Positions 10,231 through 54,052 are shown, counted from the stretch's first letter. The stretch: 64,000 bases of DNA from Gluconacetobacter aggeris (GCF_014174395.1 NZ_JABEQD010000014.1:1-64000), one strand, 5' to 3'. Program-made: numbers and translations. Notes: generated from the letters alone by a model not told the origin.

Positions 10231-12753
10231 ATGACCGGAACGGCAGGAATTCCGTTCGACGCGATCAACGCGGCGGCGCTGGCGAACTGGCCGTCGCTGG
10301 TGGCGGACTGGCTGCCGGCGGGACGGCGGCGTGGCGATGAATGGGTGGTGGGCGGCCTGGACAATGCGCCGGGGCGGTCGCTGTCGATCAATCTGCGCAC
10401 GGGACGATGGGCGGATTTTGCCGACGGGCCGCGCGGGGGAGACCCGATCAGCCTGTATGCGGCGTTGCATGCGCGGGATGACCGGGTGCGGGCGGCGCGG
10501 GAGCTGGGGGCATTGTTGGGGATAGGGGATGGGGCGGCTGTCGTCCGGGGTGCGTCGGATGAGGAGGACTGGCGCCCGGCCGTGCCGCCGCCGGGGGCGC
10601 CGATGCCGGATCTGGATGGGTGGGACCATGTCTATGCCTATCGCGATGCGGCCGGGCGGGTGATGCGCTATGTGGTGCGGCGGGATGCCACCGCGCATGC
10701 GCGCAAGCGGATCATGCCGCTGACCTGGGGCACGCTGCGGGGCGAGGGGGGCGAGCGGACGGGCTGGCATCCGCGCCATGCCGCCGTGCCGCGATCGCTG
10801 TACGGGCTGGAGCGGGTGATGCGGGCGCGCACCGTGCTGGTGTGCGAGGGCGAGAAGGCGGCCGATGCCGCGCAATGCCTGTTTCCGCGCATGGCGTGCG
10901 TGACCTGGACGGCGGGCAGCGGGCATGTGGGCCGCGCCGACTGGAGCGTGCTGGCGGGGCGGCATGTGATTCTGTGGCCCGACCATGACGCGCCGGGGGC
11001 CAAGGCGGCGGCCGAGATTGCGGCGATTCTGGGCGGGATTGCCGCGACGGTGCGGCTGGTGGATGTTGGCGACCTGGAGCCGGGGGACGATGCGGCGGAC
11101 CTGCGCGTGCCGGATGCGCGGGCGTGGCTGTGCGAGCGGGTGGGGCCGGTGCTGTGCGGCACCAGCGTGAAGCGCGCCGGGACGCGGGGCGGGCCGGCGG
11201 TGGCGCGGCGGGTGGCCGGGCTGGAGCCGATCGCGGTGCGGGGCGGGGAGATCGACCTGGTGGCCAGCGCGGGCGAGCGGGCGCTGGTGGCGGCGAATGC
11301 GCCCGTTTATCAGCGTGGCACCCGTCTGGCGCGGCCGGGGCGGCGCGAGGTGGCGGCGGCGGATGGGCGGCTGACGCAGGCAGCATGCCTGATGGATATC
11401 GGCGTGCCGGCGCTGACCGACCTGCTGTGCCAGGTGGTGGAGTGGCGGCGGTTCGACCGGCGCAGCCAGGGGTGGAAGGCGATCGACCCGCCGGCGGCGG
11501 CGGCGCAGGTGATCCTGAGCCGGGCGGGGACGTGGCCCTTTCCGGTGCTGGCGGGGGTGATTACCACGCCGACGCTGCGGCCCGACGGATCGGTGCTGAT
11601 GGCGCCGGGCTATGACGCGGCGACGCGGCTGTATCATGTCGATGATCCGACGCTGGAGCTGAGGCTGCCGGAGCCGACGCGGGCGGCGGCCAGGGACGGG
11701 CTGGCGCGGCTGGAGGGGCTGTTGGTGGAGTTTCCGTTCGCGGCCGAGGCCGATCGGTCGGTGGCGCTGGCGGCGATTTTGACCAGTGTGGTGCGGGGGA
11801 TGATGCCGGTCAGCCCGCTCTTTGCCTTTCGGGCCAATGCGCCGGGGTCGGGCAAGAGTTTTCTGGTCGACCTGGCCAGTGTGATCGCGACCGGGCGGGT
11901 GTGCCCGGTGACCAGCGCGGGGGAAGACGTGGCGGAGATGGAAAAGCGCCTGACCGGGCTGTTGCTGGCGGGCTATCCGATCATGTCGCTGGACAATGTG
12001 AACGAGGAGCTGGGCGGGGACCTGCTGTGCCAGGCGACGGAGCGGCCGATCCTGCGGTTGCGTGAACTGGGGGCGTCTTCCAGCGTCGAGATCGAGAACC
12101 GGGCGGTGATCTTTGCCACCGGCAATGCGCTGCGCGTGCGCGGCGACATGACGCGCCGGGCGCTGCTGGCGACGCTGGATGCCGGGATCGAGCAGCCGGA
12201 GCTGCGGCGTTTCGCCCGTGACCCGGTGGCCGACATCATGGCCGATCGGGGGGCGTATGTGAGTGCGTGCCTGACGATCCTGCGTGCGTGGATGGGGAGT
12301 GGGGCGGAGGTGGATCTGCCGCCGCTGGCCTCGTTCGAAGGGTGGAGCCGCACCGTGCGGGCGGCGCTGGTGTGGCTGGGGCGGGCCGATCCGTGCCTGA
12401 GCATGCAGGCGGCGCGGGAGGACGACCCGGAGCGCGGCGAGTTGCGCGAGATGCTGGGGCTGCTGGCCGAGGCGGCGGGGGTGGGCCGGCATTGCGGGCG
12501 CACGGTGCGGGAGATCGAGGATCTGTCGGCGCTGGAGCGGCAGGATGCCGCCGGGTATCGCGATGGCATGCGACATCCGGAGTTGCGGGACGCGTTGCTG
12601 CGCATTGCCGGGACGCCGGCCGGACGCGTCAATTCCCGCCGGCTGGGGCGCTGGTTTCTCGCCCGCCGAGGGCGGGTGATCGACGGGCTGCGGATTGTGG
12701 AATGCGGGATGGCGCATGGTGGGGTGAAGCGCTGGGCGGTGGAGCGGGTGTGA
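10231..12753 (+). CDS. Phage primase-helicase (TOPRIM plus P-loop ATPase)
   Basis: An 840-residue replication protein. The N-terminus (SLSINLRTGRWADFADG...GGDPISL) is typical of phage primases of this size but without zinc-ligand cysteines. A TOPRIM region (about 198-260) carries VLVCEGEKA with Glu206/Glu208 and the DxD of WPDHDAPG (Asp251/Asp253). A helicase-like P-loop, NAPGSGKS, lies near residue 535. The ATG is preceded by aaaggaaaa. It should initiate phage DNA synthesis and unwind the template. It is the last early phage gene before the sequence changes to bacterial metabolic genes. Confidence 0.8.
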   Translation: MTGTAGIPFDAINAAALANWPSLVADWLPAGRRRGDEWVVGGLDNAPGRSLSINLRTGRWADFADGPRGGDPISLYAALHARDDRVRAARELGALLGIGDGAAVVRGASDEEDWRPAVPPPGAPMPDLDGWDHVYAYRDAAGRVMRYVVRRDATAHARKRIMPLTWGTLRGEGGERTGWHPRHAAVPRSLYGLERVMRARTVLVCEGEKAADAAQCLFPRMACVTWTAGSGHVGRADWSVLAGRHVILWPDHDAPGAKAAAEIAAILGGIAATVRLVDVGDLEPGDDAADLRVPDARAWLCERVGPVLCGTSVKRAGTRGGPAVARRVAGLEPIAVRGGEIDLVASAGERALVAANAPVYQRGTRLARPGRREVAAADGRLTQAACLMDIGVPALTDLLCQVVEWRRFDRRSQGWKAIDPPAAAAQVILSRAGTWPFPVLAGVITTPTLRPDGSVLMAPGYDAATRLYHVDDPTLELRLPEPTRAAARDGLARLEGLLVEFPFAAEADRSVALAAILTSVVRGMMPVSPLFAFRANAPGSGKSFLVDLASVIATGRVCPVTSAGEDVAEMEKRLTGLLLAGYPIMSLDNVNEELGGDLLCQATERPILRLRELGASSSVEIENRAVIFATGNALRVRGDMTRRALLATLDAGIEQPELRRFARDPVADIMADRGAYVSACLTILRAWMGSGAEVDLPPLASFEGWSRTVRAALVWLGRADPCLSMQAAREDDPERGELREMLGLLAEAAGVGRHCGRTVREIEDLSALERQDAAGYRDGMRHPELRDALLRIAGTPAGRVNSRRLGRWFLARRGRVIDGLRIVECGMAHGGVKRWAVERV

Positions 12754-36808: not shown

Positions 36809-37330
36809 ATGGCGGCGGACGCGGGGGAGAAGCAGGCGCGGGGGTTGACCGTGCGGCAGGCGCGGTTCGTCGCGGAATATCTGGTCGACCTGAACACGAC
36901 GCGGGCGGCGATGCGGGCCGGGTATGGGGCGGGGTATGCGCGCCAGCATGCGTGGAAGCTGCTGCGGTCGGTGCGGGTGCGCGAGGCGATCCGCCAAGCG
37001 GAGCTGGCGCTGGAAGAACGGACGAAGTTCAGCCAGGACCGGGTGATTGCCGAGCTGACGCGGCTGGCCTTCTACGATGTGGGCACGATTGCGGCGCATC
37101 CGCTGAGGGGGCCGGAGGATATCGCGACGCTGCCGGTGGAGGTGCGTGCGGCGGTGACGGGGTGGTCGTGGGACAAGGCGGGGAATTTCACGGTGCGGCT
37201 GGCGGCGCGTACGCCGAGCCTGGACCTGCTGGCGCGGCATTTCGGGCTGCTGAAGGATGTGAAGCAGCATCTGGGCCGCGACGGCAAGCCCGCCGATCCG
37301 CCGGGCCTGTACACCGTCGTCGTGCGCTGA
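36809..37330 (+). CDS. Phage terminase small subunit
   Basis: A 173-residue DNA-recognition subunit of the packaging motor. The N-terminal Terminase_2 motif is clear: LTVRQARFVAEYLVDLNTTRAAMRAGYG (helix-turn-helix), followed by RVREAIRQAELALEERTKFSQDRVIAELTRLAFYD. Length is typical. It opens the late gene block. The 50-bp repeat begins 1 base after its stop. Confidence 0.88.
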   Translation: MAADAGEKQARGLTVRQARFVAEYLVDLNTTRAAMRAGYGAGYARQHAWKLLRSVRVREAIRQAELALEERTKFSQDRVIAELTRLAFYDVGTIAAHPLRGPEDIATLPVEVRAAVTGWSWDKAGNFTVRLAARTPSLDLLARHFGLLKDVKQHLGRDGKPADPPGLYTVVVR

Positions 37331-37654: not shown

Positions 37655-39127
37655 GTGCTGGGATATAATCGGGAGTCGGTGCCGACGATCCGGCGGTTTA
37701 TGGAATCGGATGCCTTTATCAGGGGGCTGATGGGGCCGTTCGGGTCCGGGAAAAGCTCGGGCTGCGTCTGGGAAATCGTGCTGCGGGGGTTGCGGCAGGC
37801 GCCGGGGGCGGATGGCGTGCGGCGCTCGCGCTGGGCGGTGATCCGCAATTCCTATCGCCAGCTTGAGGACACCACGATCCGCACCGTGCACCAATGGTTT
37901 CCGCCGGTGCGCTTCGGGCGGTGGAAGCCGAGCGAGCATTCCTATGTGATCGACCGGATGGTGGCGGAGGGGGACGAGAAGCCGGCCGAGATCGAGTTTC
38001 TGTTTCGGGCGCTGGACCGGCCGGACCAGGTGGGGAACCTGCTGTCGCTGGAGCTGACCGGGGCGTGGGTGAACGAGGCGCGCGAGGTGCCGTGGGCGAT
38101 CATCGAGGCGGTGCAGGGGCGTGTGGGGCGGTATCCGGCGCGGCGGGACGGTGGGGCGACATGGTCGGGCGTGATCATGGATACCAATCCGCCGGATGCG
38201 GAATCGGACTGGTACCGGTTCTTCGAGGAAAAGGATCATGGGGAGGCGGTGGCGGCGCTGGCGCAGGTGATTCCGGGCATGAATGTGGAACGCTTCGCGC
38301 GGATCTTTCGCCAGCCCGGCGGGCGGGCCGCCATGGCGGAGAATCTGGACAATCTGCCGCCGGGTTATTACCAGCGGCTGGCGGTCGGGAAAAGCGACGA
38401 GTGGAACAAGGTTTATATCGACGGGGATTACGGGTTCGTCATGGAAGGGCGGCCGGTCTTCGGCGAGTATAACGATGGGTTCCATTGCCGGGAATGCCGG
38501 ACGGTGCCGGCGCTGCCGGTTTATCGGGGCTGGGATTTCGGGCTGACGCCGGCCTGTGTCTTTACGCAGATGCTGCCGTCCGGGCAGTGGATCGTGGTGG
38601 ACGAGCTGGTGTCGGACGCCATGGGGATCGAGCGGTTTGCCGAGATCGTGGGGCGGCATTCGGCGCAGCATTTTCCCGATACGCGGTTTGTGGATATCGG
38701 CGATCCGGCGGGGATGCAGAAGGCGCAGACCGACGAGCGGACCTGTTTCGAGATCCTGCATGCGCGGGGGATTGCCATCACGCCGGGGATGCAGACGCTG
38801 GCGATCCGGCTGGAGAGTGTGCGCCGGCCGTTGCGCACGCTGCTGGACGGGGCGGCGCCGGGCTTTGTGCTGCATCCGCGCTGCACGACCGTGCGGCGGG
38901 CGCTGATGGGCGGCTACCAGTATCGGCGCGTGCAGGTGAGTGGCGAGCGCTATACCGACCGGCCGGAGAAGAACCGGTGGTCGCATGTGATGGACGCGCT
39001 GCAATACGTGGCCACGCGGCTGTTCGGCAGCGAATTGCGCGGGGCCGGCGGGGCGGAGGCGGATGACGATATCTGGCGCGCGCTGCCCGATGACGGGCGG
39101 ACGCGATCGCACATTACGGGATACTGA
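37655..39127 (+). CDS. Phage terminase large subunit
   Basis: The 490-residue ATPase/nuclease of the packaging motor. Walker A is GPFGSGKSS (residues 27-35); the Walker B/coupling region is LELTGAWVNEAREV; the nuclease domain starts VYRGWDFGLTP with its first acidic residue, and VDIGDPAG and HVMDALQY supply later ones. GTG start at 37655. All motor motifs look intact. Confidence 0.9.
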   Translation: MLGYNRESVPTIRRFMESDAFIRGLMGPFGSGKSSGCVWEIVLRGLRQAPGADGVRRSRWAVIRNSYRQLEDTTIRTVHQWFPPVRFGRWKPSEHSYVIDRMVAEGDEKPAEIEFLFRALDRPDQVGNLLSLELTGAWVNEAREVPWAIIEAVQGRVGRYPARRDGGATWSGVIMDTNPPDAESDWYRFFEEKDHGEAVAALAQVIPGMNVERFARIFRQPGGRAAMAENLDNLPPGYYQRLAVGKSDEWNKVYIDGDYGFVMEGRPVFGEYNDGFHCRECRTVPALPVYRGWDFGLTPACVFTQMLPSGQWIVVDELVSDAMGIERFAEIVGRHSAQHFPDTRFVDIGDPAGMQKAQTDERTCFEILHARGIAITPGMQTLAIRLESVRRPLRTLLDGAAPGFVLHPRCTTVRRALMGGYQYRRVQVSGERYTDRPEKNRWSHVMDALQYVATRLFGSELRGAGGAEADDDIWRALPDDGRTRSHITGY

Positions 39128-39128
39128 C

Positions 39129-39386
39129 ATGGCAGGATTGGTGATTCCGGCGCATCTGGGGGCGCATCTGGGGTTGGGGCGGCGTAGCTGCCGCCAGTGC
39201 CGCCATCATGGCGTGGAGGGCGGCGATGTGGTGTGCCGGCGCTATCCGCCGCAGGTGACGGTGGTGCTGGTGCCGCAGGGGGCGCCGCGTGTGGGGCAAC
39301 TGGCGCCGCAGCCCTTCGCCACCTTTCCGCCGGTGGTGCCCGAGCATGTGTGCGGCGAGTTCTCGCCCGGCGGCGAGGGGTGCTGA
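39129..39386 (+). CDS. Small cysteine-rich phage protein (85 aa)
   Basis: An 85-residue protein between terminase and portal. Cysteines cluster as CRQCRHHGVEGGDVVCRR, with two more near the end, which suggests a small zinc-binding site. The middle is hydrophobic and proline-rich. Its ATG overlaps the last base of the terminase stop region. No family recognised. Confidence 0.55.
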   Translation: MAGLVIPAHLGAHLGLGRRSCRQCRHHGVEGGDVVCRRYPPQVTVVLVPQGAPRVGQLAPQPFATFPPVVPEHVCGEFSPGGEGC

Positions 39387-39388
39387 GC

Positions 39389-41281
39389 ATGGATGCGGCG
39401 GAGCGGGATGGACCCGACATGGATCTGGCGGAGCGGCTGCGGCGCTGGATCGAGATCCCGAATATTGCGGAGGAGCTGGACGAGGCGACGCACGGGCGGG
39501 TGGCGGACCGGGTGGCGCGCGACTGGCGGGCCGACGAGGCCACGCGGGCCGAATGGAAGGAGAATTGCCGCCGCTGGCTGGATCTGGCCCAGCAGGTGGC
39601 CGAGCCCAAGACCTATCCCTGGCCGGGGGCGTCGAACGTCATCTATCCGCTGCTGACGGTGGCGGCGGTGCAGTTTGCGGCACGGGCCTATCCGGGCATC
39701 GTGCGTGACCGGGACGTGGTGCGGGGCACCGTGCTGGGGGTTGATTCCGGTGTGCCGGTGCCCGATCCGCTGCGGCCGGGGCAGGTCTTGACGGGGCCGG
39801 ATGGCGGGCCGTTATGGTTGGTGCCGCCGGGGGCGAAGCGGGCGCGGGCGACGGCGATCGGCCGGCATATGAGCTGGCAGTTGCTGGACGAGATGGCGGA
39901 GTGGGAGGAGCAGACCGACAAGCTGCTGCTGAAGCTGTCCATTATCGGCACCATGTTCCGCAAGACCTATTTCGACCCGGCCTTGCAGCGCAATGTCAGC
40001 GAGACGGTCGACCCGCTGCGGCTGTGCATCGATTACCATGCCAAATCCTTTGCCACCGCGCCGCGGATAACCGAGGAGATCGACCTCTATCCTTGGGAGA
40101 TCGAGGAGCGAATCCGGGCCGGGCTGTTCCTGGAACAGGATTATGGCGGCAATCATGAGGGCGGCGAGGACAGCGATGCGCCGGTGACGTTCCTGGAGCA
40201 GCATCGGCGGCTGGATCTGGATGGGGACGGGTATGCCGAGCCCTATATCGTGACCATCGCCCGCGATTCGGGCCGGCTTGCGCGCATTGCCGCCGGGTTC
40301 GACATGGATGGGGTGATGTTCGATGCGCAGGATCATCGCATCCGGCGGATCGAGGCGGTTTCGTATTACACCAAATTCTCCTTTATCCCGTCGCCGGATT
40401 CCGCGATCTACGATATCGGGTTCGGCACGTTGCTGCATCCGCTGAACGCGGCGGTGAATACCAGCCTGAACCAGATGTTCGATGCCGCGCATCTCGCCAA
40501 CGCCGGCGGTGGCTTTGTCGGCTCGGGCATGTCGCTGAACAGCGGGTCCGTGCGCTTTCAGGTCGGCGAATACAAGGTGGTGAATACGCCGGGTGCCACA
40601 TTGCGCGAGAATCTGGTGCCGTTGCAGTTTCCGGGGCCCAATCCGGTATTGTTTCAGTTGCTGGGCTTTCTGGTCGATGCCGGGCGGGAGATTGCGTCGG
40701 TCAAGGATATCCTCTCCGGCGCCATGCCGGGTGGGAATGTGTCCGGTGTGCTGGGGCTGGCGGTGATCCAGCAGGGGCTGAAAGTGTTCAGCGCCATCTT
40801 TAAGCGTATTCATCGCAGTCTGGGCGGGGAGTTTCGCAAGCTCTACCGCCTGAACCGGCTGTATCTGCCCGATGAATCCGGCTTTCGGGACGGCAGCGCG
40901 TTCTTTCGCGTCACCCGCGCCGATTACGAGCAGGGGGGCGGGGTGGAGCCGGTGTCGGACCCCGAGATCGTCACCGACATGCAGCAACTGGCACGCGCCA
41001 ATTTCCTGCTCGCCTTCAAGGACGATCCCTGGTGCGACGGGCATGAAATCCGCCGCCGTGCCTTCGAGGCTGCTGCCATCGGGATGGTGGACAAGGTGTT
41101 GCGGCCCGCGCCCACGCCCGATCCGGCGGCGATGGCGCGGGCGGCGGAGCTGGATCTGCGCGCGAAGCGTGAGGCGCGGGAGATGGAGATGCGGGCGGGG
41201 AGCGCGGCGGTGGAGCAGGTCTCGACGCTGGCGGAGGCGGCTTTGCGGTTGGCGCAGGCTCGGAAGGTGGAGCTTGGGTGA
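39389..41281 (+). CDS. Phage portal protein (P22 gp1-like)
   Basis: A 630-residue portal subunit that forms the dodecameric DNA gate at one capsid vertex. The long form and the sequence (NCRRWLDLAQQVAEPKTYPWPGASNVIYPLLTVAA, then a glycine-rich stem region and LNAAVNTSLNQMFDAAHLAN) fit the P22-like family. A long helical C-terminus (ELDLRAKREAREMEMRAG) is the expected barrel. ATG at 39389, directly after the small Cys-rich gene. Confidence 0.85.
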   Translation: MDAAERDGPDMDLAERLRRWIEIPNIAEELDEATHGRVADRVARDWRADEATRAEWKENCRRWLDLAQQVAEPKTYPWPGASNVIYPLLTVAAVQFAARAYPGIVRDRDVVRGTVLGVDSGVPVPDPLRPGQVLTGPDGGPLWLVPPGAKRARATAIGRHMSWQLLDEMAEWEEQTDKLLLKLSIIGTMFRKTYFDPALQRNVSETVDPLRLCIDYHAKSFATAPRITEEIDLYPWEIEERIRAGLFLEQDYGGNHEGGEDSDAPVTFLEQHRRLDLDGDGYAEPYIVTIARDSGRLARIAAGFDMDGVMFDAQDHRIRRIEAVSYYTKFSFIPSPDSAIYDIGFGTLLHPLNAAVNTSLNQMFDAAHLANAGGGFVGSGMSLNSGSVRFQVGEYKVVNTPGATLRENLVPLQFPGPNPVLFQLLGFLVDAGREIASVKDILSGAMPGGNVSGVLGLAVIQQGLKVFSAIFKRIHRSLGGEFRKLYRLNRLYLPDESGFRDGSAFFRVTRADYEQGGGVEPVSDPEIVTDMQQLARANFLLAFKDDPWCDGHEIRRRAFEAAAIGMVDKVLRPAPTPDPAAMARAAELDLRAKREAREMEMRAGSAAVEQVSTLAEAALRLAQARKVELG

Positions 41282-41517: not shown

Positions 41518-41802
41518 ATGGAGCAGCGTCAGGCGATGTTGGAGGATCTGTCGGAGGAGGCGTTCCTGGCCTGGCGGCATCATCCGGTGACGCGGGCGGT
41601 GCGTCTGTTTCTGACGGATTATGGTGAAAGCATCGAGCAGCGGATGCTGGGCCAGTGGCGGGCGGGGACGATTACGCTGGCGCAGGAGCATGAGGCGCGG
41701 GGCCGGGCGGCGCTGGCGGCCGAGATGGCCGAGCTGCGATGGGCGGCGATGCGGGCGTTTTACGGCGATGTGCCGGAACGGAAGGAGACGGGTAATGCGT
41801 GA
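41518..41802 (+). CDS. Phage protein of unknown function (94 aa)
   Basis: A 94-residue helical protein with many Ala, Glu and Arg residues (MEQRQAMLEDLSEEAFLAWRHHPVTRAV...). ATG at 41518 with aaagga upstream; the frame extends further 5' only through the repeat element. The FLAWRHHPVTRAVRLFLTD segment resembles small proteins next to portal genes in related phages. Function unknown. Confidence 0.6.
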   Translation: MEQRQAMLEDLSEEAFLAWRHHPVTRAVRLFLTDYGESIEQRMLGQWRAGTITLAQEHEARGRAALAAEMAELRWAAMRAFYGDVPERKETGNA

Positions 41803-42208
41803 GGGACGCATTCTGAAATTCGACCAGCAGGAATTCGTGGTTTCCGATTGGGACGGGGTGAATCGGGCGGGGTATGTGCCGCTGGACGACAAGATCCTGG
41901 TGCTGGCGGATGTGCATGCCGAGATGACCAGCGGGGCGGTGCAGTTGCCGGCGGAATATGTGGAGCGCCAGACGCTGGCGGCCGAGCATGGGACGGTGAT
42001 TGCGGTGGGGCCGGCGGCGTTTCGCTGGAACGATGACGGCACGCGGCAGTGGGTGGGGACGATTCCGGCGGCGGGGGATCGGGTTTATTTCGAACGCTAT
42101 GCCGGGCAGTTGCTGAAGGGTGAGGATGGGCGGCTGTACCGGCTGATGTCGCAGCGCTGTATTGCCGCGATTGCGGCAGTGGCGAAGCAGGAGGGAGAGC
42201 TTGCATGA
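41795..42208 (+). CDS. Phage GroES-like co-chaperonin
   Basis: A 137-residue protein that fits the Cpn10 fold: PLDDKILVLADVHAEMTSGAVQLP (start and mobile-loop region of GroES), then GTVIAVGP, then AAGDRVYFERYAGQLLK and finally RLMSQRCIAAI. Order and spacing match GroES apart from a longer centre. Such proteins could cap host GroEL and help fold the capsid, as gp31 does in T4. Good ggaaggag ribosome-binding site; 8-bp overlap with the previous gene; ATGA overlap with the scaffold gene. Confidence 0.7.
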   Translation: MREGRILKFDQQEFVVSDWDGVNRAGYVPLDDKILVLADVHAEMTSGAVQLPAEYVERQTLAAEHGTVIAVGPAAFRWNDDGTRQWVGTIPAAGDRVYFERYAGQLLKGEDGRLYRLMSQRCIAAIAAVAKQEGELA

Positions 42209-43080
42209 CGGACGAGCGCGAAGAGGGCGTGGTGCTGCACGCGGAGGCCGAGGGCCACGAGCCGGTGGCCGATGCGCCGGAGGGTGGGGCGCCTGTCGAG
42301 GGGGATGCGGAGGTCGAGGCGCAGGCGCGGCGGATGGGCTGGGTGCCGCGTGACGATTTTCGGGGTGATGTGGAGAAATGGCGGCCGGCACGGGACTTTC
42401 TGGACCGGGGGATGAATTTGCTGCCGGTGTTGCAGCAGCAATATCGGGCGCTGGATGGGCGGTATGCGACCATGCAGGCGCAGTTGCGCGACAGCCAGAA
42501 GGCGCTGGCGGACCTGACGGAGCGCACGCGGCGGGCCGACGAGCGGGCCTATCAGCGTGCGGTGCGCGATATCGAGGGCCGGCGGCAGGCGGCGGTGGCC
42601 AGTGGCGACACGACGGCGTTTGCGGTGGCCGAGCGGGATTTGCAGGATCTGCGCGATACGGCGCCGCCGGCTCCGGCTCCGGTGGAGCGGGTGGAGAGCA
42701 TGCCGCCGGAGATTATGGATTTCGTGCAGGCGAATCCGTGGTTTTCGCGCGATGCGGAGGCGCGGCAGGATGCGATTGCGATCCAGTCGGCGGTGGATCG
42801 GCAGCATCCGGGGTTGAGCCTGGCGGAACGGCTGGAGATCACGCGGCGCAAGGTACGGCAATTGCATCCTGCCCTGTTCGAGAACAAACGCCGCGAGGCG
42901 CCGCCGCCGGTGAGTCCGTCGCGCGGTGAGGGCGGGCGCGGGGGGAATCCGCGCGGGTTCGAGGCGCTGCCGGCGGAGGCGCGGCGGGAATATGACCGTT
43001 ATGCCCGCGCGCTGGCGGGCAAGGGCAAGCCGCTGACGAAGGACGAATGGGCCGGATATTACTGGGAGAACGACGCATGA
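42205..43080 (+). CDS. Phage scaffold-like assembly protein
   Basis: A 291-residue acidic, coiled protein between portal and capsid genes. The N-terminus is very acidic (EGDAEVEAQARRMGWVPRDDF), the centre is a coiled coil (about 85-135: LQQQYRALDGRYATMQAQLRDSQK...), and the C-terminus is basic. This composition and position are typical of scaffolds. It would direct capsid assembly and then leave. The C-terminal basic part may bind the coat protein. Confidence 0.7.
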   Translation: MTDEREEGVVLHAEAEGHEPVADAPEGGAPVEGDAEVEAQARRMGWVPRDDFRGDVEKWRPARDFLDRGMNLLPVLQQQYRALDGRYATMQAQLRDSQKALADLTERTRRADERAYQRAVRDIEGRRQAAVASGDTTAFAVAERDLQDLRDTAPPAPAPVERVESMPPEIMDFVQANPWFSRDAEARQDAIAIQSAVDRQHPGLSLAERLEITRRKVRQLHPALFENKRREAPPPVSPSRGEGGRGGNPRGFEALPAEARREYDRYARALAGKGKPLTKDEWAGYYWENDA

Positions 43081-44635: not shown

Positions 44636-45544
44636 ATGGCCGTAATTACGACGGGCGCGCACCCCAAGGCTCTGTGGCCCGGTATCAAGGCGTGGTGGGG
44701 GCGCAGCTATGACGAACACCGCGTCGAATATCTGGATCTGTTCGACAAGCAGACGTCGGACAAGGCGTATGAGGAGGAGGTCGAGATTACCGGCTTCGGC
44801 CTGGCGCCGGTGAAGCCGCAGGGGCAGCAGATCTATTACGACACGGAAGCGCAGGGGGCGGTCAGCCGCTTTACGCATGTGGCGTATGCGCTGGGTTATA
44901 TCGTGACCTATGAGGAGCTGCGCGACAATCTGTATGAGGCGGTGTCGAAGCGCCGGGCCGCGCAGCTGGCGTTTTCGATGCGCCAGACCAAGGAAAACGT
45001 GCTGGCCGGCATCTACAACATGGCGTTCTCGGCCAGTGCGCTGGGGGGTGACGGGGCGCCGCTGATTTCGGCCGGTCATCCGACGCTGGCGGGCAGCCAG
45101 TCGAACCTGCTGGGGACGGCGGCGGATCTGTCGGAGGCGGCGATCGAGGATCTGACGGTGCAGATCATGCAGTGCCAGAACAACCGGGGGATGCGGATCT
45201 CGGCGCTGCCGCGCACGCTCAATGTGCCTTCGGCGCTGTGGTTCGAGGCCAACCGGGTGTGCAATTCGGTGCTGCAGAACGATACGGCGAACAATGCGAT
45301 CAACGTGCTGCGGGCGACCAATGCGTTCCCCGAAGGCATCAAGCTGAACCATTATTTCACCAGCCAGACGGCGTGGTTCATCCGGACCAATGTGCCGAAT
45401 TCGCTGACCTATTATGAGCGCGATCCGATCTCGTTCGATCAGGACAATGATTTCGACACGAGGAATGCCAAGGCGGCCTGTTATGAGCGCTATTCCGGAT
45501 ACTGGGCGGATTGGCGGGGGTTGTATGGGACGCCTGGGGTTTAA
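44636..45544 (+). CDS. Phage major capsid protein
   Basis: A 302-residue major head subunit, 12 bp after the cement gene. It starts MAVITTGAHPKALWPGIKAWWGRSYDEH and has a clear Mu/P2-unrelated capsid pattern, with YVTYEELRDNLYEAVSKRRAAQLAFSMRQ-like helical spine segments (partial) and SLTYYERDPISFDQDND near the end. Position, size and its own upstream gap (possible separate promoter) support the call. Confidence 0.82.
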   Translation: MAVITTGAHPKALWPGIKAWWGRSYDEHRVEYLDLFDKQTSDKAYEEEVEITGFGLAPVKPQGQQIYYDTEAQGAVSRFTHVAYALGYIVTYEELRDNLYEAVSKRRAAQLAFSMRQTKENVLAGIYNMAFSASALGGDGAPLISAGHPTLAGSQSNLLGTAADLSEAAIEDLTVQIMQCQNNRGMRISALPRTLNVPSALWFEANRVCNSVLQNDTANNAINVLRATNAFPEGIKLNHYFTSQTAWFIRTNVPNSLTYYERDPISFDQDNDFDTRNAKAACYERYSGYWADWRGLYGTPGV

Positions 45545-46321: not shown

Positions 46322-46846
46322 GTGAGCGAGCCCTGGCGGTACCGGCCTGGCGACCATTATGTGCTGGACGACCTGTCGGGTTTCAAGATCCGGCGGTCTC
46401 GGGCGCGCACCATCCCTGGCGGGCAGACCGGGCAGGCCCTGGTGGATGGAAGGCGGTGGGAGGCGCAGCAGCCGCAGGATTTCGTGCGCGGGGTGGCGGA
46501 CGAGCAGAGTGTGGATGTGGCCCGGCCGCGCCAGGAGAACCGCTTTACCGTGGTGGGAACCTGCGTGGCGGCGCCCGCCGCCGCCGGGAGCGGCGTGGTG
46601 GCGGTGGCGTCCACGCTCGGTTTCGCCGTTGGCGACCGGGTTCAGATCATGCTCGACCGGGGTGAGAATGTTGCGGTCTCGATCGTGGCGATCGGCGGCG
46701 GAATGCTGACCATCGTGCCTGTTTTGCCGGGTGCGGTGGGGGTGCTGGGCGGGGGGATGGAGAACATGGTGCTGAAGATAGTGCGGGAATCGTCTTCGTC
46801 TTTCCTGATGGTCGAGGGCGATAAGCCGCTTGGGGCCGGGGCGTGA
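46322..46846 (+). CDS. Phage structural protein carrying the GDRV module
   Basis: A 174-residue protein with GTG start (gggaga upstream). The first half (YRPGDHYVLDDLSGFKIRRSRARTIPGG...) resembles an adaptor protein. The second half (about 88-150: VVAVASTLGFAVGDRVQIML...IGGGMLTIVPVLPGA) is a beta module also found twice in the next gene. It is probably a head-tail connector component. Confidence 0.6.
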   Translation: MSEPWRYRPGDHYVLDDLSGFKIRRSRARTIPGGQTGQALVDGRRWEAQQPQDFVRGVADEQSVDVARPRQENRFTVVGTCVAAPAAAGSGVVAVASTLGFAVGDRVQIMLDRGENVAVSIVAIGGGMLTIVPVLPGAVGVLGGGMENMVLKIVRESSSSFLMVEGDKPLGAGA

Positions 46847-46856
46847 CGGTGCCGGC

Positions 46857-48743
46857 ATGATGACGGGGAGCGCGGGCTGGAACCCCGGGACATCCGACAT
46901 CATCAACGGCGCGCTGCGGCTGATCGGCGCGATCGCCAGCGGGGAGGTGCCGCCGGCGAACGAATATCAGGACGCGCTGTCCGCGTTGAACGGGTTGATC
47001 AAGGCGTGGCAGGTATCGGGCGTGCATGTCTGGGCGCAGGGCGAGGGGACGGTGTTTCTCCAGCCCGGGCAGGCCCGGTATGGGATCGGCGCCGGCAGCG
47101 CGGACAATGTGGCGCAGGGCTATGTGGCCACGGTTGCGGGAGCGCCGGTGGTGGCGGGGGCGGCGCAGGTGACGGTGGCCTCTGTTGCCGGCATCGCGGC
47201 CGGCTGCCGGATCGGCATTGTGCTGGATGGGGGCGGGCTGTTCTGGTGCTCGGTTCTGTCGGTGGTCGGTGGGACGGTCTATCTGGCGTCGGGGCTGGGC
47301 GGTCCGGTATCGGCGGGGGCGGTGGTGGTCGCTTATGGCGCGCCGTTCGTGCGGCCGCTGACGGTGATCGGGGCGCGGGCCGTCGATCTGGCGACGGGGG
47401 TGGAGACGCCGCTGATTCCGATGTCGCGGCTGGATTATGCGAACCTGTCGGGCAAGGGGACGCCGGGTGGGAGCCCGATGCAGTATTTTTACGATCCGCA
47501 GGTGGGGACGGGTCTTTTCAGCGTCTATCCGGCGCCTGCCGGCGGGCAGGTGGCGGTGACCCTGACCTGCCAGCTTCCGTTGCAGGATGTGGGTGGTGCG
47601 GCCGATCGTGCCGATGTGCCGCAGGAATGGATCTCGGCGCTGCGTTTCGCGCTGGCGGTGGAACTGGCGCCGGAATATGACTGCCCGGCCCAGCGTTTCG
47701 AGATGCTGAAGGCGATGGCGGCGGAGAAATTCGCCGTGGTGGCGCGGTGGGATCGGGAGCCGGCGGGGACGACCACCTGCCCGTTCAGCCAGCCGGTCTA
47801 TCAGATGATCGCGGGCGCGTTGCGGCTGTGCGGGGCGGTGGGGCCGCAGGACGTGCCGCGCCTGGGGCTGGTGGAGAATGCATTCGCGTCGCTGAATGCG
47901 ATGGTGCAGGCGTGGCAGGCTTCGGGCATTCATGTGTGGGCCGAAGAAGAGTGCACGCTGTTCCTGCAGCCGGGGCAGGTGCGGTACCTGATCGGGGCCG
48001 GGTCGGCGGATGCGGTTGCGGTGAGCAGCCAGTGTGTCGAGACGGTGCTGGCGGCGGCGGGTGCCGGGGTGCAGGTGAGGGTTGGGGCTGTGGCGGGGAT
48101 CGCTGCCGGCTGGCGGGTGGGGCTTTGGCTGGATGGCGGAGGTGTGTTCTGGACCGGTGTGGTGGCGGTTTCGGGCGGTGGACTGACGCTGGCCGCGCCA
48201 TTGCCGTCCGCGGCGTCGGCGGGGGCGCGGGTTGTGGCCTATCCTTGCCCGATGGTGCGGCCGTTGCGGGTGCCGGCGGCGCGGCGGCGGCAGTTCGCGG
48301 GCGACGGGCAGGCGGTGGAGGTCCCGCTGGTGCCGATGTCGCGGCTGGATTACGCCAATATTCCGAACAAGAGCGTGCCTGGCGTGGTGACGCAGTTCTT
48401 CTACGATCCGCAATTGGGGGCGGGGGTGCTGCATGTATGGCCCGCGCCCTCGGACAGTGGCTGTGCGGTGGCGTTTACCGCACAGCGGCCGCTGATGCCG
48501 TTTGCCGATCTGGGTTCGGTGCCGGATTTTCCCGATGAGTGGCTGGCGGCGATGCGCTGGAACCTCGCTGTGGAATTATGGCCGGAATATAACGGATCGG
48601 GGAAAGGGCCGGTCGATCCGGCGCAATATGCGATTCTGAAGCAGGAGGCCGTCAGCAAGTTGATGGTGGCGCAGGCCTGGGATCGGGAGCCGCAATCGGT
48701 GTTGTTTGGTGCCGGCGCGGGGCCGGCCGGGCGGGCGGGGTAG
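46857..48743 (+). CDS. Tandem-duplicated P22 gp4-like head-completion protein
   Basis: A 628-residue protein made of two homologous halves, residues about 13-310 and 314-615. Each half starts with the gp4-like segment (INGALRLIGAI...LNGLIKAWQVSGVHVW and IAGALRLCGAV...LNAMVQAWQASGIHVW), followed by LQPGQ-RY-IGAGSAD, a GDRV-type module, then PMSRLDYAN, YFYDPQ and ALRFALAVELAPEY/AMRWNLAVELWPEY. Single gp4 proteins (about 160-220 residues) seal the portal. The fusion of two expanded copies is unusual. Confidence 0.78.
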   Translation: MMTGSAGWNPGTSDIINGALRLIGAIASGEVPPANEYQDALSALNGLIKAWQVSGVHVWAQGEGTVFLQPGQARYGIGAGSADNVAQGYVATVAGAPVVAGAAQVTVASVAGIAAGCRIGIVLDGGGLFWCSVLSVVGGTVYLASGLGGPVSAGAVVVAYGAPFVRPLTVIGARAVDLATGVETPLIPMSRLDYANLSGKGTPGGSPMQYFYDPQVGTGLFSVYPAPAGGQVAVTLTCQLPLQDVGGAADRADVPQEWISALRFALAVELAPEYDCPAQRFEMLKAMAAEKFAVVARWDREPAGTTTCPFSQPVYQMIAGALRLCGAVGPQDVPRLGLVENAFASLNAMVQAWQASGIHVWAEEECTLFLQPGQVRYLIGAGSADAVAVSSQCVETVLAAAGAGVQVRVGAVAGIAAGWRVGLWLDGGGVFWTGVVAVSGGGLTLAAPLPSAASAGARVVAYPCPMVRPLRVPAARRRQFAGDGQAVEVPLVPMSRLDYANIPNKSVPGVVTQFFYDPQLGAGVLHVWPAPSDSGCAVAFTAQRPLMPFADLGSVPDFPDEWLAAMRWNLAVELWPEYNGSGKGPVDPAQYAILKQEAVSKLMVAQAWDREPQSVLFGAGAGPAGRAG

Positions 48744-48748
48744 GGGCG

Positions 48749-51700
48749 ATGGCGGTTCAGCAGGTGGCCTTTGCCGCGCAATCGTACCAGGCGCATTCGG
48801 TGGCGCTGGATGCGCAGCGTTGCGTCAATTTCTATGCCGAATACGCGCCGAAGGATGCCAAGACGCCGGTGCCGGTGTGGGGTTGCCCGGGCATGGTGGC
48901 GTTCGCGCAGTGCGGGGCGGGGCCGGTGTGGGGCATGTGCCTGATGGGCGGGGCGCTGTATGTGGTCTCGGGGCAGGCGCTGTATCGGGTGGATGCGGAT
49001 GGGTCGAGCGTGGAGCTGGGCGCGACCTGGGTGACGGGGCCGGTATCGATGGATACCAATGGCGTCGATCTGGTGTGGGTGGATGGGGAATCCGGCTGGT
49101 CCTATTCGGTGGCCGGCGGGGTGCGGCAGATCACGGATGAGAATTTCTATCCGGCGGATTCTGTCGTTTATTTCGATACCTATTTCGTTTTCAACCGGGC
49201 CGGGACGCAGGAATTCTTTCTCTCGCCGCAGGAGGCGGTGACGCCGTTCGACGGGACGATGTTCGCCGCGAAGGAGGCGACGGCCGACCCTTTGCTGGCG
49301 GTCGTGAATTCGCATGAGCAGCTCTACCTGTTCGGCGCGGCGCGGACGGAGGTTTGGTACGATGCCGGGACTGCGGCGCCGTCCTTTCCGTTCCAGCGGT
49401 TCGATGGGGCGTTTATCCAGCGCGGCATTGCGGGGCCGCATGCGCATTGCCTGGAGGATAATACGCTCTTTTTCCTGGGCGATGACGGGATGTTCTATCG
49501 CCTGGCGGGGTACCAGCCGCAGCGCGTTTCGACCCATGCGATCGAGGGGGCGTGGCAGGCCTATGCGACGCGGGCGGATGCGCGCTGTTTCAGCTACACG
49601 CTGGAAGGGCATAAATTCGTCACCCTGCTGTTTCCCTCGGCGACCGCGACCTGGGTGTATGATGTGGCGACCGGGTTGTGGCACGAGCGGGAATCCTGGA
49701 CCGGCAGCGGGGCAGACAGTTCGATCGGTCGCTGGCGGGCCAATTGCGCGATCATGGCCCATGGCAGGGTGCTGGTGGGCGATTGGCTGAGCGGTGTGGT
49801 CGGGGCGTTGAATCCGCTGGTCTATACCGAGCTGGGGGCGACCATGCGCGGGTTGCTGGCCGCGCCGCCGGTGCAGGGGTTGCGCGGGCGCGTGTTCATG
49901 CGGCGCTTCGAGCTGGATGTGGAGACGGGGATCGGCCTGCCGGGCGTGCCTGGCGTGCGGAACGTGACCTATCAGCCGCAGGGGGTGGAACTGACGACGC
50001 CCACCGCGCTGGCGCGGGCGACGGCGCCGGAGGGCATGGCGGTGGGGCTGGCCAGTCTGCTGGTCAGCCTGTGGGTGGACCTGCCCGATGACGGCGCGCC
50101 GCGCGGGCTGGTGCTGGGCAGCGGGGATGCGACGGGCAGCCGGCCGGGCTTCTTTATCGGCGTGGCCAATGACGACACGCTGGCCGGGGCGCAGATCGTG
50201 GTGCGGGCGACCGACATGCAGGGCGGGGAGATCGTGCGTGCGTCTTACGATTTTGCCGGCTGGGGGGCGGGGTGGGTGAATCTGCTGCTGTCGCTGTCGC
50301 CGGGGGCGCGGCAGGTGCAGCTTTATGCCGGAGGGGTGGCGCTGGTGCCGGCCTCGGTCATGTGGTCGTCGGCGGCGCCGGTGGGCAATATGGCGGGGCA
50401 GGGGTGGCGCGTTGCGCCCTGGAACGGCGTTGTCGAGGGGGCGGGGCTGCTGGCGGCGCCGCAGTTTGGCGGCCATACGGCCGGGTCGACCGCCGTTTAT
50501 AACGGGTGGGCGAATATGTCGTGCATGCCGGACCGGTCGGGCAACATGATTTCGCTGGGCAGCGGGGCGGTGAATGCGGTCTCGCCTTCGGGCACGGTGG
50601 TGTGGACGCTGGAGCAGGCGAGTGTGCAGGCCGACATCCTGACCATGGCGCCGGGGCTGGACATGCTGAATGTCCGGCTGAATGCGGTCTCGGTTCTGCT
50701 GCTGGGCCAGTATCTGGTGGTGGGGGTGGATGACGGCGCGGTGTGGGAAGGCATTGCGCTGTATCAGGCCAATGGCCAGGCGGCGCCGGTCTTTCTAGGA
50801 TTTGTCTATAACGCCATTGGCGGGCCGGGGCCGATCTATGGCGCCAATCAATGTTTCCTGGCCGGGTCTCAGACGATCGACGATCCGATCCTGTCCTATC
50901 AGGTCGATTATCCGGCGGTGCCGCGTGTGGTGCTGGTCTTTCCCAGTATTGCGCAGATCATCAGCGGGGCGGCGCGGTCGGGTGGGCTCAACGGGCTGTA
51001 TCCGCAATTGGGCAGCATGGTGGCGTGGGCGGCGTGCCGGGTGCCGGTGATCAAATATGCCTATCCCGCGCAGTTGGGGACGCATCTGCTGATCCAGTCC
51101 GGCTATAACGGCAATGTCGGGTTCTTTCTGCCGGACGGGCAGGGCGGGACCAACCATTATCTGTATTTCAGCCGGGGCGACATGGCGGCCAATGCGGTGG
51201 CCGGGGGGAATGCCAATCCGGAATTGCAGGCGGTGATCGGGCCGGCCTGGCCGCATGGGGCGATGGTGCGGATTGCCATGGGGGCTGTCAGCTACGATGC
51301 GCTGGCGGCGCAGTTTGCCGGGAATAGCGCGACGTCGTCTACCGGTACATTGCCGATGTACACGATCGACAATGAAAACTGGATCGATGCTGCCGGCGTG
51401 GTGCAGATTCCGTTTGCGGATGAATATGCGTTCATTGCCGACGGGCAGCCGGGAGGGACGGATGTTTATGGCGGCCAGCCGGGGCTGACGCCGATCGGGG
51501 GGAGTGGCGACTGGCTGGTGTCGTTTCTGCTGGTGGGGCTGTCGGACAGTGCGGCCAACCGGGGCAATGCGCGCATGTGGGACACGGTGCGGGTGTTCCG
51601 GTATTCCGCCGGGCGGGCGACGCAGATCGGGGCGCCGGTTTCGGGCGAGGCTTATGCCGCCACCGACTGGGCGGGCTACACGATCGGGCCGTGGAGCGAT

Positions 51701-52369
51701 GGCAATGCCGTGGCCTATGTGAGCGGATCGGCGGTGACGATCTGCGGCAACATGAAGCAGACGGCGGTGGGGACATATCCGGTGCCGGCCGGCACGCAGT
51801 ATCAGACGCGTTTCGGCAGCCTGGCCTTTGCCACGGCGCGGATTGCCGATCTGTTCGTGGCGGCGCCGGGAGATTTCGTGGATCTGTCGGTGGCGGCGAA
51901 CCGGGCGTTGTTCCTGACCGATGCGGGTGGGGCGCGTTATCTGGCGTCTGACGGGTCTGCGCCGCTGGGGCTGGCGCCGCCGGTTTTCCTGACCGTGGCG
52001 GCGGGGGCGCCGGTGGCGGCCTTCGCCGATAATGGCGGGGCGGGTGGTGGCTTTGCGGTGACGGGGGGGATCGTGCCGGCAGGCTCGAACCCGGTGGGCA
52101 GTGCGTTTGTGGAATCGGCTGATGCCGTCGCCGACGATCCGCCCGGTGTGGACCCGCGGATCATGCTGGACTGGTCGGATGACGGGGCGCGGACCTGGAG
52201 CGCGTTGCGGCTTTGGCGGTCGATGGGGCGGCAGGGGGCGTATCGGACGCGGCTGCGCTGGCAGAAGCTGGGGCAGGCGCGGCAGCGGGTGCTGCGGTTG
52301 CAGGTGACGGACCCGGTGCGGCGCAATCTGCTCGGGTTCTATCTGGACACCGAAACGGGGATGGAGTGA
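48749..52369 (+). CDS. Giant P22 gp10-like hub protein with internal insertion
   Basis: A 1206-residue protein. Residues 1-400 (MAVQQVAFAAQSYQAHSVALDAQRCVN, then VYDVATGLWHERESWTGSG... and FMRRFELDVETGIGLPG) and residues 1134-1206 (PRIMLDWSDDGARTW...YRTRLRWQKLGQARQRVLRLQVTDPV) match the P22 gp10 tail-hub family, which is normally about 470 residues. The intervening ~730 residues are foreign to the family: a LamG/concanavalin-like start (VSLWVDLPDDG...GFFIGVAND) and Gly/Ala-rich beta sequence. gp10 binds gp4 and the tailspikes, so the insert may replace a receptor-binding protein. Confidence 0.78.
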   Translation: MAVQQVAFAAQSYQAHSVALDAQRCVNFYAEYAPKDAKTPVPVWGCPGMVAFAQCGAGPVWGMCLMGGALYVVSGQALYRVDADGSSVELGATWVTGPVSMDTNGVDLVWVDGESGWSYSVAGGVRQITDENFYPADSVVYFDTYFVFNRAGTQEFFLSPQEAVTPFDGTMFAAKEATADPLLAVVNSHEQLYLFGAARTEVWYDAGTAAPSFPFQRFDGAFIQRGIAGPHAHCLEDNTLFFLGDDGMFYRLAGYQPQRVSTHAIEGAWQAYATRADARCFSYTLEGHKFVTLLFPSATATWVYDVATGLWHERESWTGSGADSSIGRWRANCAIMAHGRVLVGDWLSGVVGALNPLVYTELGATMRGLLAAPPVQGLRGRVFMRRFELDVETGIGLPGVPGVRNVTYQPQGVELTTPTALARATAPEGMAVGLASLLVSLWVDLPDDGAPRGLVLGSGDATGSRPGFFIGVANDDTLAGAQIVVRATDMQGGEIVRASYDFAGWGAGWVNLLLSLSPGARQVQLYAGGVALVPASVMWSSAAPVGNMAGQGWRVAPWNGVVEGAGLLAAPQFGGHTAGSTAVYNGWANMSCMPDRSGNMISLGSGAVNAVSPSGTVVWTLEQASVQADILTMAPGLDMLNVRLNAVSVLLLGQYLVVGVDDGAVWEGIALYQANGQAAPVFLGFVYNAIGGPGPIYGANQCFLAGSQTIDDPILSYQVDYPAVPRVVLVFPSIAQIISGAARSGGLNGLYPQLGSMVAWAACRVPVIKYAYPAQLGTHLLIQSGYNGNVGFFLPDGQGGTNHYLYFSRGDMAANAVAGGNANPELQAVIGPAWPHGAMVRIAMGAVSYDALAAQFAGNSATSSTGTLPMYTIDNENWIDAAGVVQIPFADEYAFIADGQPGGTDVYGGQPGLTPIGGSGDWLVSFLLVGLSDSAANRGNARMWDTVRVFRYSAGRATQIGAPVSGEAYAATDWAGYTIGPWSDGNAVAYVSGSAVTICGNMKQTAVGTYPVPAGTQYQTRFGSLAFATARIADLFVAAPGDFVDLSVAANRALFLTDAGGARYLASDGSAPLGLAPPVFLTVAAGAPVAAFADNGGAGGGFAVTGGIVPAGSNPVGSAFVESADAVADDPPGVDPRIMLDWSDDGARTWSALRLWRSMGRQGAYRTRLRWQKLGQARQRVLRLQVTDPVRRNLLGFYLDTETGME

Positions 52370-52992
52370 TGCCGGCGGTACCGCGCCAGACCCTGCCGGT
52401 GGGGGACTGGCCGTTCGTCGACACCGCGACCGGGCGGCTGACGCTGTCGGCCTATCAGTTTCTCGCGCGGCTTCAGGCCGGGTCCAGCGGGTCGATCCGC
52501 AACCTGTCGGTGATTGCCGGGGCGCTGGGCGTGCCGGTGGCAAGTATTGGTGCCAGCGGGCCGGATTCGGTGATCCTGCCGGCGTCCTTTCCGCCGCCGG
52601 CACCCGTGCCGGCGGGGCGGGGGGAACGGTTGTCGGCGTTGCTGGCGGCCGTGCCGCGCCCGGTTGTGCCGGGTTCGCGAATGTTGCCCGTGGCGCCGGC
52701 GCGGCCGGGGGATGTGGTGGTGCTGCATCATGGCGCGCGGGTGATGGACGGGTTCGGCGGGCCGGAGGGGCGTGTCGCCGGGTGGGTGGGCGATGTCTTC
52801 CTGCAACGCGATGGCGGGCCGGCGGGGGCGGTGTGGGCCAAGCAGTCGGGCGCCGGGACGGTGGCGGGCTGGGCGGTGCTGGGGCAGGGGGCTGGCGCGG
52901 GGGGCGGCGTGCTGCCGCTGGTCAACGGGAATATCGCGCCGGTCGGCATGCTGTCCGATCCGGCGGGGCAGACAATCGGGGTGCCGATCTGA
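52369..52992 (+). CDS. Phage tail-region protein of unknown function (207 aa)
   Basis: A 207-residue protein overlapping the gp10-like stop by 1 base (TGATG). Residues 1-40 (MPAVPRQTLPVGDWPFVDTATG, then TLSAYQFLARLQAG) are a short conserved start found in tail-end proteins of related phages. The rest is Pro/Ala/Gly-rich and extended, with one hydrophobic beta patch (GDVVVLHHGARVMDGFGGPEG). Function unknown; probably virion-associated. Confidence 0.6.
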   Translation: MPAVPRQTLPVGDWPFVDTATGRLTLSAYQFLARLQAGSSGSIRNLSVIAGALGVPVASIGASGPDSVILPASFPPPAPVPAGRGERLSALLAAVPRPVVPGSRMLPVAPARPGDVVVLHHGARVMDGFGGPEGRVAGWVGDVFLQRDGGPAGAVWAKQSGAGTVAGWAVLGQGAGAGGGVLPLVNGNIAPVGMLSDPAGQTIGVPI

Positions 52993-53450
52993 TGGGCAAC
53001 AGCACGCTGATTACCGATTATCTCGGTTACGGCACCCTTGCCGCGCGGCCGGTGGCGCCGAACCTGCCGGCGGGGTGTCTCGGGGTCTATTACGCCACCG
53101 ATACCGGGCAGATCCAGGTGTGGAACGGGGCGTGGCAGGATTGGACGCCGTCCGCCCTTTCCTTCTCCGGCAGTCTGGTGGCGGCGGGAAGCGGGCAGGG
53201 CACGGCGGCTGCCGTGTCGTCGGAGGTCAATCTGTTCACCACTGTGGCGGCCGGCACCGGGGCGGTGCTGGTGGCGGGGCTGGCGGGAACCTGGCGCAAG
53301 GTGCTGAACCGGGGCGGTTCCGCGCTGCTGGTCTATCCGCCCGTGGGGGGCGTGATCGATGCGCTGGCGGCGGGAGTGCCGGTTGCGATCGTGCCCGGCG
53401 GGGGCGCCACGTTCTGGCAGAACAGTGCAACGCAATGGTATTCGGAATGA
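52992..53450 (+). CDS. Phage tail-region protein of unknown function (152 aa)
   Basis: A 152-residue beta-rich protein, TGATG-coupled to its upstream neighbour. The N-terminus (LPAGCLGVYYATDTGQIQVWNGAWQDW) is a short WNG-type motif seen in phage fibre or decoration proteins; the C-terminus resembles a small beta-barrel (AAAVSSEVNLFTTVAAGTGAVLV, ending ATFWQNSATQWYSE). Likely a virion or fibre-like component. Confidence 0.6.
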   Translation: MGNSTLITDYLGYGTLAARPVAPNLPAGCLGVYYATDTGQIQVWNGAWQDWTPSALSFSGSLVAAGSGQGTAAAVSSEVNLFTTVAAGTGAVLVAGLAGTWRKVLNRGGSALLVYPPVGGVIDALAAGVPVAIVPGGGATFWQNSATQWYSE

Positions 53451-54052
53451 AGAGAATCCTGTTGATGCTGGCCGGCATGCTGGTGCTGGCGCCGTATGCT
53501 GCCGGCCCGGCGCGGGCGCAGATGGTGGGGCCGGTCGGGCATGGTGAAATTCCGTCCTGCCCCGACAGCGGCGGCAGCCATCTGAATTATGTGCCCGCGA
53601 GCGGAAGTTTTGCCTGCGGCACCACGGGTGTGCCCTGGGTGGGGGCGATGGTGAGCCTGTCGGCGGATGCGGCGATGGCGGCGACCGGCGGCAGCTTCGT
53701 GCAGATGAAGGTATGGAACAGCGAAATTCTCGATACGTCGTCTTTCTGGTCGGCGGGTACGCCGGGGCAGTTCACGATTCCGGCCGGGGTGAGCCGGGTG
53801 CGGGTTGCGCTGTCGATCGCGCAGTCGGGTATCGGGTCCAACCAGTTCCTGGTGTATCGGAACGGGGTGCGGGTGGCCGGATCGTTCCGGATCTCGGTGC
53901 CGGCGGGCTACAATAATGACGGGGTGACGGGCATGTCGGGGGTCATTCCTGTTTCTGCGGGCGATGCGATCAGTGTTTCCTATGCCTCGGCGGCGGCTTT
54001 TACGCTTTCTGCCGATGTCAGTACCTGGTTCCAGATCGAGGCCGTTCAATAG
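53447..54052 (+). CDS. Exported C1q-like phage protein with signal peptide
   Basis: A 201-residue protein, last gene of the late block, with 4-bp overlap. A clear signal peptide (about 1-25: MKRILLMLAGMLVLAPYAAGPARA) is followed by a C1q/TNF-like beta-sandwich (about 75-201: VKVWNSEILDTSSFW..., FTIPAGVSRVRVALSIAQSG, YNNDGVTGMSGVIPV, ending TWFQIEAVQ). Phage structural proteins normally lack signal peptides, so this one may be exported by the lysogen. Either host-surface modification or an acquired cell gene is possible. Confidence 0.65.
   Translation: MKRILLMLAGMLVLAPYAAGPARAQMVGPVGHGEIPSCPDSGGSHLNYVPASGSFACGTTGVPWVGAMVSLSADAAMAATGGSFVQMKVWNSEILDTSSFWSAGTPGQFTIPAGVSRVRVALSIAQSGIGSNQFLVYRNGVRVAGSFRISVPAGYNNDGVTGMSGVIPVSAGDAISVSYASAAAFTLSADVSTWFQIEAVQ

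Follow-up and report, generated by a model that had tools for sequence, protein, structure and literature searches.

The tail hub gene and its boundaries

The window analysed here is a stretch of 64 000 nucleotides from Gluconacetobacter aggeris (GCF_014174395.1, NZ_JABEQD010000014.1:1-64000). Directly 3' of a gene for a head-tail adaptor, in the gene order typical of the family, it carries an open reading frame with an ATG start (48749-52369, plus strand) that encodes a protein of 1206 amino acids (Table 1). Residues 1-397 of this protein match positions 1-400 of the 486 positions of phrog_578, 'head closure Hc3' (E = 2.8e-105), residues 1130-1203 match phrog_19101 (E = 5e-13), and two solved hub structures (9vyg and 7eeq) cover residues 21-317 and, weakly, residues 1134-1203. 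By its N part, its C module and its gene position, the protein is a member of the gp10/Hc3 tail hub family. Membership refers here to the PHROG Hc3 family and not to Pfam PF11134 (Phage_stabilise), a narrower P22 gp10 model that found no match in the G. aggeris genome. By analogy with the family, the product would form, as a hexamer, the nozzle of a short-tailed phage-derived particle.

The first-pass annotation had described a gp10-like hub interrupted by an insertion of about 730 residues, and had stated that the C-terminal motif normally stands close behind the DVETG segment; both statements hold. Alignment of the hub with phage relatives falls into two pieces that leave residues 398-1133 without a partner, i.e. 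an insert of 736 residues with family matches at both ends. In 14 homologues from other Acetobacteraceae (459-520 amino acids, versus 1206 here) this block is missing between 'LDMQNGSG' and 'VDWSDDRG', and the flanking strands '..LDVETG' and 'DWSDDG..' adjoin directly. Thus the G. aggeris hub has its N part, C module and post-adaptor position in common with P22 gp10 and PHROG 578 Hc3 (packaged DNA stabilisation protein), but ordinary members of this family seen here have only ~440-520 amino acids, and 736 residues are added before the C module in G. aggeris.

Table 1. Features of the hub gene and of the phage-derived element in G. aggeris. Positions are counted from the first base of the window; that of the collar fibre gene is given on the contig.
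Feature	Position	Strand	Evidence and remarks
Module A: S24-type CI-like repressor	8754-9530	-	Peptidase_S24; phrog_4
Module A: primase/helicase	10231-12753	+	phrog_29234, phrog_19930, phrog_239; in 12 of 13 good-quality genomes
Metabolic/host gene block between modules A and B, outside the phage set	13041-36700		Gene calls
Terminase small subunit (terS)	36809-37330	+	phrog_51, E = 4.6e-27
Terminase large subunit	37655-39127	+	phrog_2, E = 2e-23
Portal	39386-41281	+	phrog_1216; phage portals up to 40% identical
GroES-like co-chaperonin	41795-42208	+	Cpn10, E = 1.3e-10; phrog_3188
Putative scaffold	42205-43080	+	Position only; conserved in all copies; no family match
Major coat protein	44636-45544	+	Phage_capsid_4; 91-100% identical across the genus; dN/dS 0.03
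Head-tail adaptor, two fused tandem adaptor domains	46830-48743	+	SU10_adaptor, E = 2.5e-15; halves 50% identical
Long tail hub (nozzle), P22 gp10/Hc3 type, 1206 aa	48749-52369	+	PHROG, solved-structure and phage-relative matches
Hub N part, residues 1-397	48749-49939	+	phrog_578, E = 2.8e-105; dN/dS 0.12
Insert of 736 residues, residues 398-1133	49940-52147	+	Missing from 14 short homologues; dN/dS 0.37
Probable ConA/LamG-like lectin-type domain, residues ~400-560	49946-50428	+	Foldseek on low-confidence model; ~31-38% identical domain in wild relatives
Two blade-like units, possibly beta-propeller-like, residues ~588-690	50510-50818	+	VIA-align Z up to 9.7, low-confidence model
Conserved end block of the insert, residues 1027-1132	51827-52144	+	30-40% identity to second hub gene of relatives
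Hub C module, residues 1134-1206	52148-52366	+	phrog_19101; ~40-67% identity to C module of most wild relatives
Small post-hub gene, conserved in the cassette	52369-52992	+	Cassette comparison
Small gene, possible tail component	52992-53450	+	Cassette comparison
Fast-evolving protein, signal-like N terminus, possible fibre; end of module B	53465-54052	+	dN/dS 0.39
Collar-domain tail fibre	77558-78463 (contig)		Phage_Collar; 25 kb downstream of the hub

Fold of the insert

The insert is recognised by no Pfam, PHROG or PDB family; in Pfam neither LamG nor anything else matched it at E up to 1. The insert alone returned nothing from phage records at E up to 1, and in scans of IMG/VR and GTDB its matches were confined to Gluconacetobacter. 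Structure prediction was poor (AlphaFold mean pLDDT 38 both for the insert alone and for its later part), but two parts of the model, insert residues ~40-150 and 200-290, were usable and show resemblances. With residues 40-150 of this low-confidence model Foldseek retrieved CBM66, CBM40 and galectins (probability 0.80-0.96, E = 0.03-0.09), no match of the insert models reaching E < 0.001, and for residues 191-293 nearly all top VIA-align rows were propeller blades (Z up to 9.7, again on a low-confidence model).

The first-pass annotation had the insert begin with a LamG-like domain. The weak model resembles ConA-like modules but Pfam finds no LamG in the insert, and the domain is called lectin-like here because no Pfam sequence model matches it. 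Support independent of the models comes from a homologue of this domain in wild relatives (~31-38% identity). Thus the insert probably starts with a ConA/LamG-like lectin domain, and the models suggest that its middle part may be a beta-propeller.

A dispersed, genus-wide element

The cassette that contains the hub starts at terS and finishes with the gene that ends at 54052; its genes correspond one to one in 14 copies. In G. aggeris the phage genes form three modules (A, B and C; 8.7-12.8, 36.8-54.1 and 75.8-79.4 kb of the contig) whose order agrees with that in other species, and metabolic genes separate them by ~24 and ~22 kb. The third module comprises genes for a GNAT protein, an ejection protein, the collar fibre and two more conserved small proteins; one small gene of this module possibly encodes a lysozyme-like product, judging by its sequence. 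The distance from primase to collar is variable: the two genes lie 30 kb apart in G. diazotrophicus and 38 kb apart in G. takamatsuzukensis, but 68 kb in G. aggeris and ~97 kb in G. asukensis. The whole element spans 70.6 kb in G. aggeris and ~30-34 kb in G. diazotrophicus; genomes of hub-related phages measure ~33-51 kb. No Pfam tyrosine integrase was found on the contig of the element in G000, G008 and G041, or within the element in G317, G159, G271 and G075.

Several genes of the element vary within the genus. The number of fused adaptor copies per chain is 1, 2, 3 or ~2.7 (one in most wild relatives seen), a variation that would alter the composition of the adaptor ring. The protein encoded at 53465-54052 has ~200 amino acids in G. 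aggeris and 272-345 in the other clade. G317 has no primase and carries in its place, between repressor and terS, an MHYT-like gene of regulator type; in G. diazotrophicus the MHYT-like gene adjoins an intact primase. The cassette's own GroES-like co-chaperonin is 86-100% conserved within the genus.

The long hub was found in all 13 good-quality Gluconacetobacter genomes (64-97% identical to that of G. aggeris) and in none of ~380 other genomes of the order, where only short hubs were detected. A further genome, G397, in which no long hub was detected, is an assembly of 1310 contigs and 87% completeness in which the collar gene of the element is present. Prophages of the ordinary kind, with a short hub, were seen in only 2 of the 13 genomes. 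In the G. liquefaciens and G. tumulisoli assemblies (2 of 13) the hub frame is broken by a single-base frameshift inside the insert, which in G. liquefaciens sits at a G run; the two pieces that result resemble the hubs that relatives, described below, naturally encode on two genes, or the breaks may be assembly errors.

Inheritance and selection

Distances between cassettes were strongly correlated with rpoB distances (Mantel r = 0.93, P = 1e-4). The two trees have their main groups in common; they disagree on the branching order inside two trios of close species and on deep nodes of weak support. An AU test on the cassette rejected the exact topology of rpoB, so that some gene exchange among closely related species, or a conflict at these weak deep nodes, is likely. 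Since the flanks of the cassette included the element's own modules A and C, the comparison of loci rested on outer chromosomal genes. G. aggeris, G008 and the main copy in G. diazotrophicus have such genes in common, and so do that copy and G317, which links them in a chain; a common chromosomal locus was thus seen for part of the genus only, and not for azotocaptans, johannae and tumulisoli.

Pooled dN/dS values in the G. aggeris clade were 0.03 for the coat, 0.09 for the portal, 0.12 for the hub N part, 0.20 for the C module, 0.33 for the adaptor and 0.37 for the insert; gene p46322 gave 0.27 and the co-chaperonin 0.09. Across genes the ratio ranged from 0.03 to 0.49, with synonymous divergence mostly 0.2-0.47 in one clade. 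The element is under purifying selection and vertically inherited through the genus. Within the hub, divergence is roughly threefold faster in the insert than in the N part, a pattern that indicates a constrained yet fast-evolving segment; its best-conserved stretch lies mid-way (residues 766-857, 79-83% mean identity), with lower values at the ends. Faster divergence is as expected of a surface-binding part.

A second copy, in G. diazotrophicus PA1 5 (~2702-2735 kb), lies ~100 kb from the main copy and is missing from G075, a nearly identical genome. It has integrases on both sides, genes for exonuclease VIII-like and UvsX-like recombinase proteins, and large ejection-like proteins. Its hub is 64-65% identical and of the same long type; the insert is therefore not specific to domestication. 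The genus-wide element probably descends from a phage of this kind. G. aggeris and most other members of the genus lack the large ejection-like protein that this second copy encodes, which speaks against efficient delivery of DNA by the genus-wide element.

Split and modular hubs in wild relatives

Coats related to that of the element were found on at least 600 stretches in IMG/VR (61-84% identity for those kept). Their hubs form a series: short hubs on one gene, hubs with an insert near residue 124, and hubs split near residue 320, the C part of which is on a second gene behind ~400-650 new residues. In the hubs nearest by sequence (G398, G412 and G411) the first gene encodes the N part and, behind it, a ConA-like domain. 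A second gene, which shares one base with the first, is present in G411 and G412 and closes with the end block of the insert plus the C module; the G398 record stops short of this second gene, and the two-gene layout is probable there. The end block of the G. aggeris insert is 30-40% identical to the relatives' second gene (E = 3e-9 to 5e-14; hhalign probability 95% and 78%), and the middle of the insert (~residues 560-1025) has no detectable similarity to the N-terminal part of that gene. G411 also has the hub C module at the end of each of two consecutive genes, which would fit a phage with two alternative hub-borne adhesins.

The relatives' hubs and those of Gluconacetobacter are thus alike in the succession of N part, ConA-like domain, end block and C module, but differ in that the former are encoded by two genes and have a middle part of unrelated sequence. 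As judged from these alignments, the Gluconacetobacter hub is the one-chain form of the relatives' two-gene layout; two neighbouring genes holding the hub halves would there give the arrangement that a single chain gives here. It could accordingly be asked whether the long hub arose by fusion rather than by insertion, two ancestral overlapping hub genes having been joined by loss of the stop between them. The end of the first gene after the lectin-like domain in all three nearest relatives and the one-base overlap in two of them speak for it, but the dissimilar insert middle does not, and since hubs that are short and encoded by one gene abound in this phage group, splitting of a long one-gene hub is equally possible. 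We give fusion slightly less than an even chance. It concerns origin only and is compatible with an adhesive role of the hub.

A hub that may also be an adhesin

A close parallel is the nozzle protein gp17 of phage SU10 (PMC9509320), which also has extra domains inserted in the nozzle; an SU10-like adaptor and portal are encoded nearby here too. In gp17 four Ig-like domains have been added between blades 2 and 3 of the propeller, together with a fibre-dock loop, whereas the G. aggeris insert belongs to the C-terminal part of the chain and its first domain is probably lectin-like. The SU10 platform is formed from both chain ends of the nozzle protein (PMC9509320). By analogy, the insert-bearing C-terminal part of the G. 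aggeris hub would be the platform, and the insert would then hang beside the tail.

We infer the fold of the insert and its binding to glycans. The proposed insert is a ConA/LamG-like lectin-type domain, then a middle part that is perhaps a beta-propeller, then the second conserved block, and the whole most likely points away from the tail, to the side or downward, and attaches to a glycan on the cell surface. If it does, the hub would also be one of the particle's adhesins, and it is plausible that hub and adhesin are one chain. We favour, with moderate confidence, a hub bearing an outward, glycan-binding insert within a domesticated, vertically inherited prophage set that has no tyrosine integrase. 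The structural set looks like a domesticated prophage, dispersed among host genes in several species. Because the element is such a derivative, host range may not be the relevant role.

A more specific alternative is that the element is a podovirus-derived gene transfer agent (GTA), or a PBSX-like killer particle, conserved in the genus, unrelated to RcGTA and binding surfaces through a lectin-propeller block of the hub. Assembly of the gene products into particles, and a function of these, we likewise infer. Co-inheritance with the host lineage (13 of 13 genomes, the Mantel correlation and the main rpoB groups) and the absence of a tyrosine integrase for autonomous integration in the seven genomes searched are as expected of a GTA, and an integrase of the kind that goes with an active temperate prophage accompanies only the second G. 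diazotrophicus copy. The likeness to the Bartonella GTA (BaGTA; PMC9662315) is one of dispersal and co-inheritance, with phage-derived structural genes scattered over ~70-80 kb and co-inherited with the host genus. An RcGTA-type cluster was sought and not found: its marker TIGR02217 was detected in none of 14 genomes, with Caulobacter as a positive control. In a mitomycin screen of 177 acetic acid bacteria, Gluconacetobacter included, only particles of the myovirus type were seen (PMC8566455); particles of this element, if made, may therefore need another trigger. On balance a GTA or killer particle is possible but doubtful.

The first-pass annotation had also noted that no tailspike gene was present in the block, and had proposed that the hub had absorbed the receptor-binding function. 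Family searches indeed detected no P22-type spike, but the same element encodes a collar fibre and small tail candidates (52369-54052). With the Phage_Collar fibre gene present in 14 of 14 genomes of the genus, the hub is not the only candidate adhesin; the collar fibre could be the true adhesin, and the small post-hub genes are further candidates. The insert might then extend the nozzle for a structural or assembly purpose, making the tail longer or offering a dock for fibres, and the host would be recognised by the collar fibre and the products of these small genes. The extended nozzle that the Ig-like domains and fibre-dock loop build in SU10 (PMC9509320) and the ubiquity of the collar fibre are in agreement with this, as is the better conservation of the insert middle than of its ends. 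However, the insert diverges about threefold faster than the hub N part, probably starts lectin-like, and an in-frame TGA interrupts the collar gene of three genomes (G134, G144 and G075); we consider a structural extension rather unlikely.

Finally, a decaying remnant that has no present function and is conserved through recent common ancestry would account for the hub frameshifts (2 of 13 species), the loss of primase in G317, the collar stops, the metabolic genes that landed between modules and the missing large ejection-like protein, but it is unlikely given dN/dS values of 0.03-0.49 despite substantial synonymous divergence and a coat that is 91-100% identical across the genus.

No report of such an element or particle was found in the open papers searched. 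If the reading that we favour, an outward glycan-binding insert on a domesticated hub, is correct, the hub of a short tail and an adhesin can be one chain, and close phage relatives preserve short, split and possibly fused stages of the origin of this one-chain hub. The element is a candidate for a new domesticated particle of the podovirus type in acetic acid bacteria, including the nitrogen-fixing G. diazotrophicus.
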